Origin: Dehalococcoides mccartyi | Lineage (GTDB): Bacteria > Chloroflexota > Dehalococcoidia > UBA2979 | Direction of reading: 5' to 3' | Length of the DNA: 64,000 nucleotides | NCBI GenBank assembly: GCA_945865925.1 | Contig: CAMBFG010000008.1 | Location: forward strand, 1 to 64,000 | Part shown: positions 5,527 to 26,804 of the stretch, in pieces | Numbering within the stretch: position 1 is the stretch's first letter | Layout: the number at the start of each line of letters is the position of its first letter | Position numbers and translations under genes: made by a program | Notes under the pieces: model-generated | The model's input: only the letters and a program-made list of their open reading frames with translations | What the model was told of the DNA's origin: nothing | The model's database searches: none

Positions 5527-8500
5527 CTACACCGAGGCGAGCGCCGGTTCACGCTCGCCGGCCAGCAGCCGCAGCAGCGCCTCCACCGACCCCAGCCACG
5601 CCTCCCCCAGCGCCCGACGCGGCACGCGGATCTGCGCCCGCCCGATGTTCGCGTCGCGCGGCAGCGAGGGCAGCCGTCGCATCGAGAACGGGTGGTCGGA
5701 GGTCGCCTGCAGGAGGCACTCGTCTCCCTCCACGCGCACCGAGGCGATCCCGGCCGCCCGCGCCGTCAGCCGCAGCCGCGCCAGCGCGAGCATGTTCGAC
5801 AGCGGCTCCGGCAGCGCCCCGAACCGGTCCTCGGTCTCCACCGCGAGCGCCTCGGCGTCCGCGCGTGAGCGGAGGCCGGCAATCCGCTGGTAGAGCGCCA
5901 ACCGCGCTTCGAGGTCCTGCACGTACGACTCTGGGATATACGAGGCGACCGGCAGGTCGATCACGATGCTGCGCAGCGCGTCGCGGTCCTCGTGCGGCAG
6001 CGTCTGCGGCGCGCGGTGCTCGTGCTGCGCGCGCAACCCCTCGACCGCCTCGGCCAGCATCTCCGTGTACAGGTCGAACCCCACCGACGCGATGTGCCCG
6101 CTCTGCTCCGCGCCCAGCAGGTTGCCCGCCCCGCGGATCTCGAGGTCGCGCAGCGCCACCTGGAACCCCGCGCCCAGCTCCGTCGCTTCGAAGATCGTGG
6201 CGAGGCGCGCCTGCGCCTCCTCGGTCAGGATGCGGCCGCGCGGGTGGAAGAGGTACGCCGAGGCCTGATTCGCCCCTCGGCCGACACGCCCGCGCAACTG
6301 GTACATCTGCGCAAGCCCCAGCAGGTCGGAGCGGTCCACGATCAGCGTGTTCGCGTTCGGGATGTCGATGCCTGACTCGATGATCGTCGTGCAGACGAGG
6401 ACGTCGAACTCACCCTCGGAGAACTTCTCCATCACCGACTTCAGGATGCTCTCTGGCATCTGTCCGTGGCCCACGACGATGCGCGCCTCCGGCACCAGCG
6501 CCCGCAGCGTGTCGGCGAACTCGTCGATGCTGTGGACGCGGTTGTGGACGACGAACACCTGCCCGCCGCGGTCGATCTCGTGCAGGATCGCCTCCCGCGC
6601 GATCGGCGCGTCCCACTCCATCACGTAGGTCTGCACCGGCTGCCGTCCCTCAGGGGCCGTTTCGATGGTGCTCATGTCGCGGATGCCCGTGAGCGCCATG
6701 TGCAGCGTGCGCGGGATCGGCGTCGCGGACAGCGTCAGCACGTCCACCTCCAGCCGCATCCGCTTCAGCCGCTCCTTGTGCGTCACCCCGAACCGCTGCT
6801 CCTCGTCGATCACCACCAGCCCGAGGTTCGCGAACTCGATGTGCGGGTCGAGCAGCCGATGTGTCCCGATCAGGATGTCGATCTGCCCTGCCTTCGCCCG
6901 CTCGAGGATCTCCCGCACCTCCTGGTCCGAGCGGAACCGCGAGATCACATCGATGCGCACGGGGAAGCCGGAGAGCCGCTCGCGGAACGTGCGCAGGTGC
7001 TGCTCGGACAGCACCGTCGTCGGCACCAGCACCGCGACCTGGTAGCCCTCCTGCACCGCCTTGAACGCCGCACGCACCGCGATCTCGGTCTTCCCGAAGC
7101 CGACGTCCCCGCAGATAATGCGGTCCATCGGTTGCGCCGACTGCATGTCGCCCTTCACCGCGCCGAGGGCTTCGATCTGGTCTGGCGTCTCCTCGTACGG
7201 GAACGCCTTCTCCATCTCGCCCTGCCACTGCGTGTCCGGACCGAACGCGTGCCCCTGCAACATCTGTCGCGCCGCGTACAGCCGGATCAGGTCCTGCGCG
7301 ACGAGTTCGATCGCGCCCTTCACCCGCTGCCGGGCGCGGGTCCACTCCTGTGTCCCCAGTCGCGTCAGCCGCGGCACGTGCCCCGCCGGCCCGTTGTAGC
7401 GAGTGACGCGGTCCACCTGCTCCACCGGCACGTACAGGCGGTCCTCGCCGGCGTAGCGGAGTTCGAGGTAGTCCCGCTCCTCCTCGCCCACCATCCGCCG
7501 CACCGTCCCGCCGAAGCGCGCGATGCCGTGGTCGGCGTGGACGACGAAGTCGCCCGGTGATACCTCCGCCAGGAAGCGCGAGCGGTGCGTCGTGCGTGTG
7601 CGCAGCGTCCGCCGTCGCTTCACGAACCCGAACAGTTCGCGGTCCGTGGAGAGCGAGGCGATCCCGTCCGCCGTCTGGATCGCCCAGCCCTCGGGCAGCG
7701 AGCCCTGGAGCAGCGCCAGCGTCCCCCGCACCGGTTTCGCGGGCACCTCGTCCAGTACCGACGTGCGCACACTGTTCTCGCCAAGGACTTCGACATACCG
7801 CTGTGCCTGCTGCGTCACCACCGCGATGCGGTCGCCGCGCGCCACCTGACGCTGGTGGTCGCGTGCCGCGTCGGTCAGCCGCCCCGCGTACGCGTCCGCT
7901 GTCTTGAACGGCAGCCGGAACGCCCCTGGCTCCGCGCCCGTCACCCACCGCCCGAGTTCCGCGCGCAGCCCCCGACCATCGAGGGCGCCTTTCAGCCGCT
8001 CGCGTGGCTCGTGCGGCAGCGGTGCGCGCCGGTCGAGTTCGCCGCGCCCCGCCATCTCCTTGCGCCGCTCTTCCGCCAGTTCGTCCAGGTCGGCCATCGC
8101 CGCCTCAATCGCCTCGCGCTCGTCGAGGATCACGAGGCCCCCGTCGCGCAGGTGGTCGAGGATCGTCGACTCGACCGCGAGCGGGCCGTACAGCGCCGCG
8201 TCCGTCAGTTCGCCCGCGCGCAGTACGTGCAGCGCCTCCTGCGCCTGTGCGTCGCGCACCTCGTCCAGCCGGCCCGCGAGGCGGCTCAACTCCTCGCGCG
8301 TCGGGAACCACTCGCGCGCCGGCCCGATCACCACCTCGTCCAGCGTCCCCACGGTCCGCTGGCTTTCGATGTCGAACGCACGGATCGACTCCACCTCCGG
8401 CCCGAAGAACTCGATCCGCACCGGCCGCGGCGCACCCGGCGGGTACACATCGAGGATGCCCCCACGTCGCGCTGCCTGCCCGGGGATCTCCACCAGCGGC

Positions 8501-21381: not shown

Positions 21382-21729
21382 ATGGCAATGGCTGAGAAGC
21401 GCCCGGGCGAACCGTTCACACGGATCGACGTCAGCGAGGCGAAGGAGATGATCGACGCCGGCGGCGTCCAGGTCATCGACAGCCGCGAGCCCCACGAGCA
21501 CGAGGACGGCCACGTCCCCGGCTCGCTCCAGATCCAGCACATGGCCACGCTCGTCCACGCCGACAAACTGGCGAAGGATCGCCCCATCCTCTTCATCTGC
21601 AAGTCCGGCGCGCGCTCGGCCGTCGCCGCGGAGTTCGCGGCGGCCCTCGGCCTCACCGACATCTACAACGTCGAAGGTGGCCACGAGGCCTGGGAGAAGG
21701 CCGGCTTCCCGATGGACACGGGCCGCTAG
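21382..21729 (+). CDS. Rhodanese-like domain protein
   Basis: VIDSREPHEHEDGHVPGSLQI and active-site loop ICKSGARSA. Confidence 0.93.
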   Translation: MAMAEKRPGEPFTRIDVSEAKEMIDAGGVQVIDSREPHEHEDGHVPGSLQIQHMATLVHADKLAKDRPILFICKSGARSAVAAEFAAALGLTDIYNVEGGHEAWEKAGFPMDTGR

Positions 21730-23354
21730 ACGCTGTTTCGCAGCACCTCGCGCACTGCCGTCATCAGCGCGTCCGCATCGAACGGCTTCTGCAGGTAGCG
21801 TGCCGTTACGCCCGCGGGCAGCGTCGGACGTGCGGCTTCCATGTCGTTCGTGACAAAGACGATCTTGTCCCACAGTTCGCGAGTGTGCGCCTGCACCCAC
21901 GCAGCGAATGTACTCGCGTCGATCCCCCGCATCGCCTGCTCCGCGATCACGAGGTCGGTGCCGCCGCCGATCAGATCCTCCACACCCTGCGCGCCGTCCG
22001 CTGCCGTCGTCACCTCGAACCCCGCCTTGACGAGGATCTCTGAAGTCAGCACCCGGATCGCCGGGTCACTATCGATCACCAGCACCCGGCCGAGATACTC
22101 CGACGGCACCGCCGAGCGGTCCACCGGCTCGTGCGCCTCCGGTGTGGGCGCCATCGTCCGAGGCGCTTGCCCCGCCACCAGTGGCAACTGCACGCCCGCA
22201 GGCGGCAGCGGTATCTCTGGCTCCTGACGCGCGAACTGCAACAGGTTGCGCATGATCCGCGCCGCGCGCTGCGACTCTTCCTCGATCGTGTGCAACGCCA
22301 GCTCGCGGTCGACGCCTTCGAGGGTGTCGAGGATCTGCGCGTACCCGAGGATCGAGGTGAGCGGGTTGTTCAACTCGTGCGCCACACCCGCCACGAGGTC
22401 GCCCAACGCGTCGAATCGTGCGGCGGAGACACCCTCCGGATCGGCGGCTCCGGCGACGGCCGCTGCGGGCGTGATCGGCTCGCGCAGCCGAGGCCCAAGG
22501 CCCCGCAGCGTCCGCTCCGCTAGCCAGCCGTCCGCGCCGGAGAACCCTCGCGCCGCGCGGCGGTAGAGGATCGCGGTGCCTGCGATGTCCGCACCGGCGA
22601 ACAGCGGGATGTGTAACCGCGAACGCAGCCCGAAGGCAGGTAGCCGTCCGAGCGGCGTGAGCGCGATCGCGCCTGAGGCCAACGGCAGCAGGTCGCCATC
22701 CAGCGTCGGCTCGCCACGCTCCCGCACGCCGACCTCGGCCTCGTCGAGCCGCGACCACGCGTCCCCGGACGCCACCCCGGCCATCGCCGTCGGATACGTC
22801 GCGACGACGAGGGCTCCCCCGCCGACGAAGCGGAGCACGCAGGCGAAGTCGAACGACATTGCCGCGTCGAGCGCCTGGAGCACACCCCGGGTAGCGACCC
22901 GTGTCCCCTCGGTGTCATCAAGCACATCGGCGGCGGCCAGCGGCGCGTCGCTCGGGACCGGCGTCACGCTCGATGCGATCTCGGGCAGGGTGCCGCCCGA
23001 GGGGACAGCGAGGCGGATCGCCCAGCCCTCGCCGCTCACCAGTCCCACCATCTCCACCACCAGTGCGACAGAGACCTCGCCAACCTCGAAGCGCAGCGCG
23101 CCGGTCCACGTCAGTCCCGGCCCTGGCCACGGTTCCGGCCAGCGAGCGCGGTCACCACGCGCCACCAGCGAGCGCACTTCGCGCCCGAGCACCGTCCCCG
23201 TCTCCGACAGCCCGAGGAGCGCACACGCGGCAGCGTCGGCGCGGCGGATGGTCCCGCCGGCGTCGACCAGCAGCCACCCCGGGGGTGGTGCGTCCACGGT
23301 GCGTGCCCCAGCGTCAGGCACGAGTACCCCTTTCGAGGGCAGAGCGATCCTCAA
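21726..23354 (-). CDS. Histidine-kinase-like protein: PAS/GAF-like N-terminus, HisKA H-box, no HATPase domain, C-terminal receiver domain
   Basis: GVAHELNNPLTSILGYAQIL H-box; linker leads directly into GRVLVIDSDPAIRVLTSEIL...DLVIAEQAMRG...VFVTND...LQKPFD; no N/G1/F/G2 boxes visible. Confidence 0.85.
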   Translation of the reverse strand: MRIALPSKGVLVPDAGARTVDAPPPGWLLVDAGGTIRRADAAACALLGLSETGTVLGREVRSLVARGDRARWPEPWPGPGLTWTGALRFEVGEVSVALVVEMVGLVSGEGWAIRLAVPSGGTLPEIASSVTPVPSDAPLAAADVLDDTEGTRVATRGVLQALDAAMSFDFACVLRFVGGGALVVATYPTAMAGVASGDAWSRLDEAEVGVRERGEPTLDGDLLPLASGAIALTPLGRLPAFGLRSRLHIPLFAGADIAGTAILYRRAARGFSGADGWLAERTLRGLGPRLREPITPAAAVAGAADPEGVSAARFDALGDLVAGVAHELNNPLTSILGYAQILDTLEGVDRELALHTIEEESQRAARIMRNLLQFARQEPEIPLPPAGVQLPLVAGQAPRTMAPTPEAHEPVDRSAVPSEYLGRVLVIDSDPAIRVLTSEILVKAGFEVTTAADGAQGVEDLIGGGTDLVIAEQAMRGIDASTFAAWVQAHTRELWDKIVFVTNDMEAARPTLPAGVTARYLQKPFDADALMTAVREVLRNSV

Positions 23355-23459: not shown

Positions 23460-24119
23460 CTAGTTCCGCCGGTCGACGCCTCCAAAGCGCTCGGACACCG
23501 CCCGCTGCGCCTGTTGGTGCGCCCCGCGGATCAGCGGCTCCAGCACCGCGTCCGCCCGCTCCAGCCGCCGCCGCACGTCCAGCGTGTCGAGGAGCGGTTG
23601 GAGCAGTCGAGGTGGCAGCACATCAGCCGCTGCCGTCCCGATCGCGTCTGCCAGCGCTCCAGGCGCCTCTGGGACGCGCACGTTGCGGCGGTACACCCCG
23701 TCCACCAACTGCCGGAAGCGCTGCACCTGCTGGAACGCCGTCGTCACCTGTTCCAGCAATGCCTCCGGCACGTCCGTCACCTCGTCCACCGGGTACTCGA
23801 CCTCCGCCGTGAGGAACGCGCGGTCGCGGTTCAGGCTCAGGATGCGGAAGCGCCGCTCGCCGATCGTCTGCACCATCACCCGCCCACCACCCACGGGCGA
23901 CGCGGACCGGATGCGAGCCGTCGTGCCGATGTCGTGCGGGACCGCCTCGGCATCGCCGACCTCGGAACCCGAGCGGATCAGCACGACCCCGAACGGCTCG
24001 TCCGCCTCCATGCACTCCGCGAGCAGTTGGTGGTATCGCGGCTCGAAGATCTGGATCGGGAGGGCCATGCCGGGGAACAGGACGGTCCGCAGCGGGAACA
24101 GCCGCAATGGACTCACCAT
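23460..24119 (-). CDS. LON peptidase substrate-binding (Lon N-domain) protein
   Basis: LRLFPLRTVLFPGMALPIQIFEPRYHQLLAECMEADEPFGVVLI, DIGTTARI, GERRFRI. Confidence 0.92.
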   Translation of the reverse strand: MVSPLRLFPLRTVLFPGMALPIQIFEPRYHQLLAECMEADEPFGVVLIRSGSEVGDAEAVPHDIGTTARIRSASPVGGGRVMVQTIGERRFRILSLNRDRAFLTAEVEYPVDEVTDVPEALLEQVTTAFQQVQRFRQLVDGVYRRNVRVPEAPGALADAIGTAAADVLPPRLLQPLLDTLDVRRRLERADAVLEPLIRGAHQQAQRAVSERFGGVDRRN

Positions 24120-24260: not shown

Positions 24261-26804
24261 CTACGCCGTCTGTAGCGCCCGCACGCGAAGCGCAGCCGTC
24301 GAGGCCCCCGCACCCGCCAGCGGCAGCAGCGCCATCAGCGCCCCACCGTCGTAGTAGTGCGGGACATAAGCAGTGCCAGCGGCGACCCCATCGTCGAGCT
24401 TCACCGCGATGCGGATCGAGGCCGTCCCATCCGTCAGGTCGACCACGTCGCCCGTCCGGACACCGGCCGCCTCCGCGTCTCGCGGGTTCAGCCACACGGA
24501 CTCCTCGCGGTGCAACTTGTCCGCGTCGTCCGAGTGGATCGAGGCCGCATCCCACGCCGTGTACAGCGACCGCCCCGTCGCGAGCGTGAGCCCGCCAGCA
24601 GGGGAGACCACCGACGTCGGCGCCGGTTGAGCGTTCGCCGTCGTCGATGCCGCGACCAGCGCGCGCACCTGTGCCGGGTTCGCGTCCACCTCAGCCATCG
24701 TCGGGTAGCCCGTTGCCGCGGCCAGCGCCTCGTGCGCCTCCGCGATGCCCGAGGGTGCCTCGCGGTCGCCGAGGCGTCCCGCCAGCGCCGCGAGGATCGC
24801 GACCCCGTCCGACTCCTGGCCGCGTGCGCGCTGCGCCGAGCGCTGGTGCATCACACGTCGGTCAGCGTTCGTGATCGTCCCGTCCGTCGCGAAGAACGGC
24901 GCAGCCGCCAGCACCACCGTCGCGTGCTCCGCGACCGTCGAGCGCAACGAGTCGATCACCACCAGCGCTTCGAGGTTCCCCAGCGCCGCCTCGATCGCCG
25001 CGCGGCCGGGCGCGTTCAGCAGCGGGTTGTCGGCGTGGATTACCAGCGCCTTCACCTCGCCACGCTGCGCCGCCTCGATGATCTCCGGGAACGACTTGCC
25101 GCCCGCACCCGGCGCGATCCCCATGTCGGCAATGCCGAGCACGTTCGCGTCCGTCGGCAGGTAGTGGAACGCAGAGCCCGCCTCCGCGCCGCGTAGCGCA
25201 ATCGCGAGGTTCACCGCCGCCGTCGCCCCTGCGCCCGCGCGGGCCGCGCCATCCGCACCGTTCGGCGCGTACACGACAGCGCCGTTCCCAGCGCCCTTCG
25301 CCTTCGCGACCACATCGAGGGCGCGCGCCCAGCCGTCAGCGTCCACGCCCGCCGGCGCAGCGCCACCGTCGGCCAGCCCCTGTAGCGCCGCCGCCTCCAG
25401 GCCCGGCGCTACGCGCACGATCGCCGCCGCCCAGCGGTCGAGGGCAGTCCACTTCGCCGAGACGATGACCACCTGCGCCTTGCGCTTGATCACCGAGTCC
25501 TTCAGCCGCAGCGACACCACCTGGTGCGAGTCCTCCACGTCGAGGGCCGCCAGCACCACCGTCTGCGCCTGCTCAAGGTCAGTCAGGGAGGCCGGCACCC
25601 GGTCCGTGCCGAACGCCGCGCGCATCGCCGAGGCGACCGCACGATGCACCGTGCCGTGCGAGAAGTCGAGGTGCGGCGTGCCAATCGCGCGTGCGAGGCG
25701 CGCCAGCAGGTACGCCTCTTCGTTCGTCGCCAGCGGCGAACCGAGGACCGCGATTGCGTTTGCCCCGCTCGCGGCCTTCACCGCGCTCAGCGCGTCCACG
25801 GCCGTCGTCAGCGCCTGCTCGAACACAGCCGGCAGCAGCCTCGACCCCGCACGCACGAGTGATCGCGTCAGCCGTTCGCGCTCCGCGACCGCGACATAGC
25901 CGAAGCGCCCGCGCACACAGATCTGGTCGCGCGAGAACGGGTTCAGCCGGTCGGGCCGCACGATGACCGGGCGGTCGTCGGCCGTGCCGTAGGAGATCGT
26001 GCAGCCCACGGCGCACGAGTTGCACGTGGAGTTCGTCCAGTCGTCCGCGCGGCCGATCCACTTGTTCGGCTTCTCCATCAACGTCGCCGTCGGGCAGACA
26101 TCGATGCACGCGCCACAGAAGTTGCAGTCGGACTCGTGAATCGACCCACCGGTGCCGAAGGCGATCATCGTGCGGTGGCCCTTGCCCGAGAGTGCGATGG
26201 CGCCCGTGTGGCGCAGGTCGTCGCAGGCACGCACGCAGCGCGTGCACAGGATGCACATCTGCGGGTCGAACTCCAGGAACGGGTTGCCGCGGTCCGGCTC
26301 CGGGGGCGGCATCTCGTAGTACGAGCGCGGCTCACCCACCCACGGCTCCTCGAAGTCGCCCTGGTCCACGATCTCGCACGAGGTCTGCAACTCGCAGCGG
26401 TAGTTCTTCGAGCACGTCAGGCAGCGATGCGTCACGACGTCGTCGCGTAGGCAGATGTCGCCCGGCATGCAGTGGACGCGACGGTGACAGGTCAGGCAGC
26501 GGTCCGGGTGGTTCGCGAGGATCAGCGACATCACCGACTGCCGGGTGCGCTGCACCTCGGCCGTCTCGGTGTTCACCACCATGCCATCGGCCACCTGCGC
26601 CACACACGACAACTGCAGCGTCGTCGGCCGCGCGCCCACGATCTCCACGATGCACGTGCGGCAGCCCGCGTACGGGTCCAGCCCGTCGATGTAGCAGAGG
26701 TTCGTGATCGCGACGCCGTTCGCCTTGATCACCTCGACGAGGCGGGCTCCCGCGGGAGCCTCCACGGCCTGGCCGTTGAGTGTGATCTGGACCACGTCCC
26801 CCAC
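24261..26804 (-). CDS. nuoG: NuoG-like / molybdopterin-oxidoreductase-type iron-sulfur protein
   Basis: N-terminal 2Fe-2S ferredoxin, multiple Cys motifs (HPDRCLTCHRRVHC, HRCLTCSKNYRCELQ, MCILCTRCVRACDD, CNFCGACIDVCP, CNSCAVGC), molybdopterin oxidoreductase-like C-terminus. Confidence 0.85.
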   Translation of the reverse strand: MGDVVQITLNGQAVEAPAGARLVEVIKANGVAITNLCYIDGLDPYAGCRTCIVEIVGARPTTLQLSCVAQVADGMVVNTETAEVQRTRQSVMSLILANHPDRCLTCHRRVHCMPGDICLRDDVVTHRCLTCSKNYRCELQTSCEIVDQGDFEEPWVGEPRSYYEMPPPEPDRGNPFLEFDPQMCILCTRCVRACDDLRHTGAIALSGKGHRTMIAFGTGGSIHESDCNFCGACIDVCPTATLMEKPNKWIGRADDWTNSTCNSCAVGCTISYGTADDRPVIVRPDRLNPFSRDQICVRGRFGYVAVAERERLTRSLVRAGSRLLPAVFEQALTTAVDALSAVKAASGANAIAVLGSPLATNEEAYLLARLARAIGTPHLDFSHGTVHRAVASAMRAAFGTDRVPASLTDLEQAQTVVLAALDVEDSHQVVSLRLKDSVIKRKAQVVIVSAKWTALDRWAAAIVRVAPGLEAAALQGLADGGAAPAGVDADGWARALDVVAKAKGAGNGAVVYAPNGADGAARAGAGATAAVNLAIALRGAEAGSAFHYLPTDANVLGIADMGIAPGAGGKSFPEIIEAAQRGEVKALVIHADNPLLNAPGRAAIEAALGNLEALVVIDSLRSTVAEHATVVLAAAPFFATDGTITNADRRVMHQRSAQRARGQESDGVAILAALAGRLGDREAPSGIAEAHEALAAATGYPTMAEVDANPAQVRALVAASTTANAQPAPTSVVSPAGGLTLATGRSLYTAWDAASIHSDDADKLHREESVWLNPRDAEAAGVRTGDVVDLTDGTASIRIAVKLDDGVAAGTAYVPHYYDGGALMALLPLAGAGASTAALRVRALQTA

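Follow-up and report, generated by a model that had tools for sequence, protein, structure and literature searches.

The minus-strand gene P0001 encodes a histidine-kinase-like protein that retains a HisKA (DHp) domain with its phospho-acceptor histidine and has no ATPase (CA) domain. The ATPase domain was lost by deletion in the ancestor of the genus, before the genus diversified, because sister genera have a full hybrid kinase at the same locus. Constraint on the HisKA domain did not loosen after this loss and equals that of full-length orthologues; only the attached receiver was accelerated, about threefold. The best reading of these sequences, which we hold tentatively, is that sensor input gates the DHp module, that this module targets a separate response regulator, for which it would most likely be a phosphatase, and that the pseudo-receiver is vestigial.

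Gene and domain make-up

The window is the whole stretch of DNA that was analyzed (64,000 nucleotides), and its genome is designated G000. The frame running from 23354 to 21726 has no internal stops over 542 aa. Its start codon is uncertain, with a TTG immediately after a stop and similarity to orthologues beginning at about residues 5 to 8. The features of the locus are listed in Table 1. The kinase-like gene and the convergent rhodanese gene overlap tail to tail by 4 bp (21726-21729).

Table 1. Features of the kinase-like gene and its neighbors in the window
Feature	Position	Strand	Basis
ATPase-less histidine-kinase-like protein P0001	21726..23354	-	542 aa, open frame; 4 genus orthologues, 64-74% identity
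N-terminal PAS-like region, residues about 19-130	22965..23300	-	Sub-threshold Pfam PAS; 52% of genus-alignment columns invariant
GAF domain, residues about 140-297	22464..22937	-	GAF over cut-off in G003 and sister-genus orthologues; aligned region
HisKA (DHp), residues 317-379; H326 (22377-22379), E327, N330	22218..22406	-	Pfam E 2.7e-16
Linker in place of HATPase domain, residues 381-420	22095..22214	-	Genus alignment; about 150 aa of HATPase_c here in sister-genus orthologues
Pseudo-receiver, residues 424-535; D428/S429, E472 (21939-21941), T502, K523	21750..22085	-	Pfam E 1.5e-11; solved-receiver alignment
Convergent rhodanese-domain gene, synteny marker	21382..21729	+	PF00581 E 1e-19; conserved across family
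Stand-alone LON substrate-binding-domain protein, upstream synteny marker	23460..24119	-	PF02190 E 2.2e-33
NuoG-like subunit, upstream synteny marker	24261..26804	-	Pfam Molybdopterin, NADH-G_4Fe-4S_3, and Fer4_Nqo3

A sequence-only reading of this gene had described a PAS/GAF-like N terminus, a HisKA domain, no ATPase domain, and a receiver with Glu at the phospho-acceptor position. Pfam matches confirmed the HisKA domain with its phospho-acceptor histidine (PF00512) and the receiver (Response_reg, PF00072, 44.9 bits, over the cut-off), and profile scans of the genome independently placed the two at C8:22218-22406 and C8:21750-22085, respectively. The phosphatase-type E/DxxT/N motif is present beside the histidine as HELNN. 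The description of the N terminus held only in part: in the window copy both PAS (Pfam, E 0.03-0.07) and GAF are below threshold, but GAF is over the cut-off in the orthologue from G003 (E 4.1e-5) and was found by Pfam in 12 of the 18 family members scanned. An AlphaFold (AF2) model built with four genus sequences was poor (mean pLDDT 39) and was confident only in the DHp hairpin (about 70-84).

Absence of the ATPase domain across the genus

The Pfam search of the 542-aa protein recovered no HATPase_c match even at an E value below 1, and no match to a degenerate CA-like C-terminal domain of the kind found in Spo0B and ChpT (PF10090 or similar). The HATPase_c domain with N, G1, F, and G2 boxes that characterizes HisKA-type sensor histidine kinases gives way to a linker about 40 aa long in each of the five species compared, namely, G000, G001 (SCTU01000012.1), G002 (QZJI01000004.1), G003 (SCVR01000020.1), and G004 (VGPD01000004.1). 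Within the genus two blocks of this linker, PAGVQLPL and TPEAHEP, have been conserved, whereas the linkers of full-length orthologues vary freely. AGVQLPL was considered as a possible scar of the last HATPase strand (VELP), but the similarity in a profile scan was not significant, the score being reached by 77 of 500 shuffles.

Relocation of the domain to a neighboring gene was ruled out by a scan of the window's own genome, in which none of the 14 HATPase_c matches lay in or near the kinase-like gene. An assembly error or strain-level deletion was likewise ruled out, because the domain is absent from five separate species assemblies. The same genome holds a second CA-defective HisKA protein (G000:C1, about 29.1-30.4 kb; L116:1610-2461, 2254-2901), with a weak HisKA and no HATPase match, which is followed by an overlapping weak receiver-like open reading frame.

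The CA domain is required for autophosphorylation of histidine kinases. Therefore, we strongly infer that the known route of autophosphorylation is closed to the protein, which is not an autokinase.

Intact frames of 542 to 568 aa are present in four genus copies, and copies from the other species are 64-74% identical in protein sequence to that of the window, at a dS of about 0.85-1.1. The copy in G004 lies in three frames (L057, 7906-9640), with one break at the PAS/GAF junction and one ahead of the receiver; these breaks may be assembly errors.

A full-length ancestor at a conserved locus

The gene order NuoI, NuoG, LON domain, kinase, and convergent rhodanese is kept across the family, and the LON gene adjoins the kinase in family loci that carry it, as far as the contigs reach. 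At this locus sister genera have a full GAF-HisKA-HATPase-receiver hybrid kinase. The HisKA, HATPase_c, and receiver domains are found in that order in a single frame in G012, G026, G062, and G060, with GAF recognizable in most. The same parts are divided over contig ends or frames in G035, G014, G032, G018, G010, and G024, and G063 has the same domains with one frame break. Full-length orthologues at the same locus indicate that the ancestral form was a hybrid kinase in which the N, G1, F, and G2 boxes were present and the receiver had the complete DD/D/T/K set. The sequence-only reading had held that orthologues with an intact HATPase domain would point to a recent deletion or an assembly error in the window; sister genera do have such orthologues, but within the genus the deletion is ancient and has become fixed.

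A tree was built from five neighboring genes, NuoI, NuoG, LON, rhodanese, and a phosphoribosyltransferase. In this tree the genus shares a 14-row group (support 100) with full-length clades, lying beside and among them, and G005 falls in a separate 11-row group (support 100). In G005 (L117:7435-8679, C34) Pfam finds HisKA and, directly after it, an intact receiver with its Asp, but neither HATPase nor GAF. Two separate ATPase losses, one in the genus and one in G005, are the simplest reading, and the second loss appears likely, with the caveats that G005 sits on a long branch, that its HisKA is divergent, and that its sister genome G020 is not placeable at the locus.

Other forms of erosion occur at the locus. 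The reverse pattern, HATPase kept and receiver decayed, is seen in G021 and G007 (L052:1353-3632; L054, about 6565-8416). The decayed receiver has Ala at the acceptor position and Arg at the Lys position; in G021 the HATPase is intact and the Response_reg match (Pfam, E 2.8e-4) is below the cut-off. The orthologue in G067 (L164:2618-3928) retains HATPase and has lost the receiver entirely. Several other genera have LON beside rhodanese with no kinase between them.

Selection on the retained domains

Because dS was near 1 and partly saturated, dN was compared against a species yardstick instead. This yardstick was the combined NuoI and NuoG distance, which was 0.12 for G012 versus G026 and G035 and 0.08-0.12 within the genus. 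In the HisKA region (residues 311-380), 62 of the 70 columns are invariant across the five species, and H326, E327, and N330 are kept in all five. Pairwise HisKA dN within the genus was 0.013-0.056, versus 0.026-0.047 in a full-length trio at a similar species distance, and it is this comparison that reveals no loosening.

The receiver behaved differently. Its dN within the genus was 0.27-0.44, with one close pair, G002 and G004, at 0.083, and only 35 of 118 columns are invariant; in the full-length G012 compared with G026 and G035, dN was 0.12-0.13 for the receiver and 0.040-0.047 for HisKA. The GAF domain was not faster in the genus (dN 0.10-0.26 in most pairs and 0.31 in one, versus 0.29-0.34 in full-length orthologues). 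The whole-gene dN/dS was 0.13-0.30, and the ratio was below 1 in every domain, including the pseudo-receiver (about 0.09-0.44).

Decay of the attached receiver

Alignment with solved receivers (phmmer) matched E472 to the phospho-Asp and matched Thr502 and Lys523 to the conserved Thr and Lys, respectively, and the genus alignment agreed. The Glu at the acceptor position and the retention of Thr and Lys, both described in the sequence-only reading, were thereby upheld; overlooked there was that the metal-binding DD pair has lost its second Asp, in whose place the window copy has Ser429. A canonical receiver needs every one of the DD pair, phospho-Asp, Thr/Ser, and Lys. The window copy keeps only the last two intact, and a PF00072 match without key catalytic residues is what defines a pseudo-receiver.

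The position of the second metal-binding Asp is occupied by S, A, S, G, and S in G000, G003, G002, G001, and G004, respectively, so the Asp is lost in all five species, and in the same order the acceptor position is E, D, N, D, and S. Only G003 has lost the Thr and Lys. Because the acceptor varies and the second metal-binding Asp is lost throughout, the attached receiver is a decaying pseudo-receiver with no conserved phosphomimic. The earlier suggestion that Glu472 mimics phospho-Asp and makes the protein constitutive is not supported, given this variation. Thus, of the two features whose conservation was in question, the absence of HATPase is shared by all genus members and the D-to-E change is not. 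Elsewhere in the genome, an OmpR-like regulator (G000:C1:300073-300732; L196) has a receiver without the canonical acidic residues and is another possible pseudo-receiver.

Possible functions of the protein

The starting point was a soluble PAS/GAF hybrid histidine kinase, whose CA domain was deleted in the genus ancestor. The sensor and the dimeric DHp helical hairpin are the parts kept under selection. In the proposed mechanism, PAS/GAF input would alter these DHp helices, leading to binding of a separate response regulator and control of its phosphate. The DHp would most likely remove that phosphate, since it retains the His and the ExxN motif, as do the isolated EnvZ and NtrB DHp domains. 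The attached receiver would no longer serve as a phospho-switch.

EnvZ and NtrB need no more than their DHp domains to act as phosphatases (PMC3510030). In CrdS the Asn at H+4 is phosphatase specific and the Glu at H+1 is needed only for kinase activity (PMC3510030). Because both the Asn and the Glu are kept, the sequence is compatible either with a DHp phosphatase or with a His phosphorylated in trans, and retention of the Glu is no less consistent with the second of these. Furthermore, the CA domain greatly raises DHp phosphatase activity in EnvZ and NtrB, and activity without it may be weak. In a possible, if somewhat unlikely, alternative, H326 would receive phosphate in trans, either from another kinase's CA domain within a heterodimer or through back-transfer from a phosphorylated receiver, and would hand it on to a response regulator, as in Spo0B and ChpT; phosphorylation in trans had also been raised by the sequence-only reading. 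H326, E327, and the entire alpha-1 helix are invariant, and ChpT passes phosphate from a DHp-type hairpin without autokinase activity (PMC3433190). However, ChpT has kept a CA-like domain and the 542-aa protein has none. The phosphatase is favored because the genome has no close HisKA paralogue for a heterodimer (the best other HisKA is 44% identical over about 60 aa) and because the protein's own receiver cannot provide the relay Asp in three of the five species (G000, G002, and G004).

The sequence-only reading had also raised a noncatalytic scaffold, in which the hairpin would be only a dimerization rod and PAS/GAF signals would reach a partner bound by the linker or pseudo-receiver. The conserved linker blocks and the constraint still acting on the pseudo-receiver are consistent with this, and some known pseudo-receivers do act through protein contacts (PMC12632262). 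We consider it improbable, since in a pure rod the His and the phosphatase Asn would be expected to drift like the receiver Asp; both are invariant, in helices as constrained as those of full-length kinases. More improbable still is ongoing pseudogenization, in which ATPase loss would have begun the decay and what conservation is left would reflect short time or residual constraint. The scattered active site of the receiver, the two frame breaks in G004, and the decay, loss, or absence of parts or all of the gene elsewhere in the family point that way, but a relaxed gene would decay uniformly. The intact frames at such synonymous distances, the low whole-gene dN/dS, and the constraint on HisKA argue against it, and the G004 breaks may have the trivial explanation given above.

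A search for the regulator on which the putative phosphatase would act compared the distributions of two orphan regulators across family genomes, and neither tracks the kinase: one is mostly confined to the genus and was not found in two members, and almost every family genome holds a relative of the other, including some genomes without a kinase at the locus. The conserved linker blocks are a possible docking motif. A broader proposal, which we regard as doubtful, is that a hybrid kinase has been converted two or more times in the family (genus g1 and G005), each time into a sensor-gated DHp protein that has no ATPase and whose only action is to remove or relay another regulator's phosphate, and that the linker blocks of the genus form a new docking element.

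Comparison with known systems

HisKA proteins without HATPase are usually dismissed as incomplete or misannotated kinases. At this one conserved locus the ancestor, the deletion, and the selected remainder can all be read, with the DHp fully constrained and the receiver decayed. Thus, the long-standing question of the natural role of CA-less DHp domains becomes directly testable with a small soluble protein. Compared with the open-access literature, the combination seen here in bacteria, HisKA without HATPase plus a C-terminal pseudo-receiver and a traceable ancestor, is a variant of known proteins.

One close likeness is to archaeal nonenzymatic histidine-kinase-like proteins, mainly from Archaeoglobi and Methanomicrobia, in which PAS/GAF sensors are followed by HisKA with a conserved His and no recognizable HATPase and which P2CS labels "possible incomplete histidine kinase" (PMC5847659). 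The window protein has this make-up, with GAF over the cut-off in G003 and PAS sub-threshold. Galperin and co-workers proposed phosphatase activity for the archaeal proteins, and one of them, AF_1472, bears a receiver (REC, PAS/GAF, and HisKA, no HATPase) (PMC5847659). Unlike them, the protein described here is bacterial, its (pseudo-)receiver is C-terminal, and its full-length ancestor can be traced at the same locus in sister genera.

The Asp is missing from 2.0% of receivers and is most often replaced by Glu; like bacterial pseudo-receivers (PsR), the domain studied here is a Response_reg match without key residues, and both of its changes, the missing second DD Asp and a Glu at the D position, are common ones (PMC12632262). 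In contrast to described PsR, it lies behind an ATPase-less HisKA, and the state of the D position differs between sister species.

Like Spo0B and ChpT, the protein has a dimeric helical-hairpin histidine module without autokinase activity (PMC3433190). ChpT, however, retains an atypical Bergerat-fold C-terminal domain (PMC3433190), whereas here there is no recognizable CA remnant and a PAS/GAF sensor is present. The likeness to the isolated DHp phosphatases of EnvZ and NtrB is that of a HisKA hairpin with HExxN and no CA domain (PMC3510030). Those are laboratory constructs, whereas the protein described here carries a natural, inherited CA deletion together with its own sensor.
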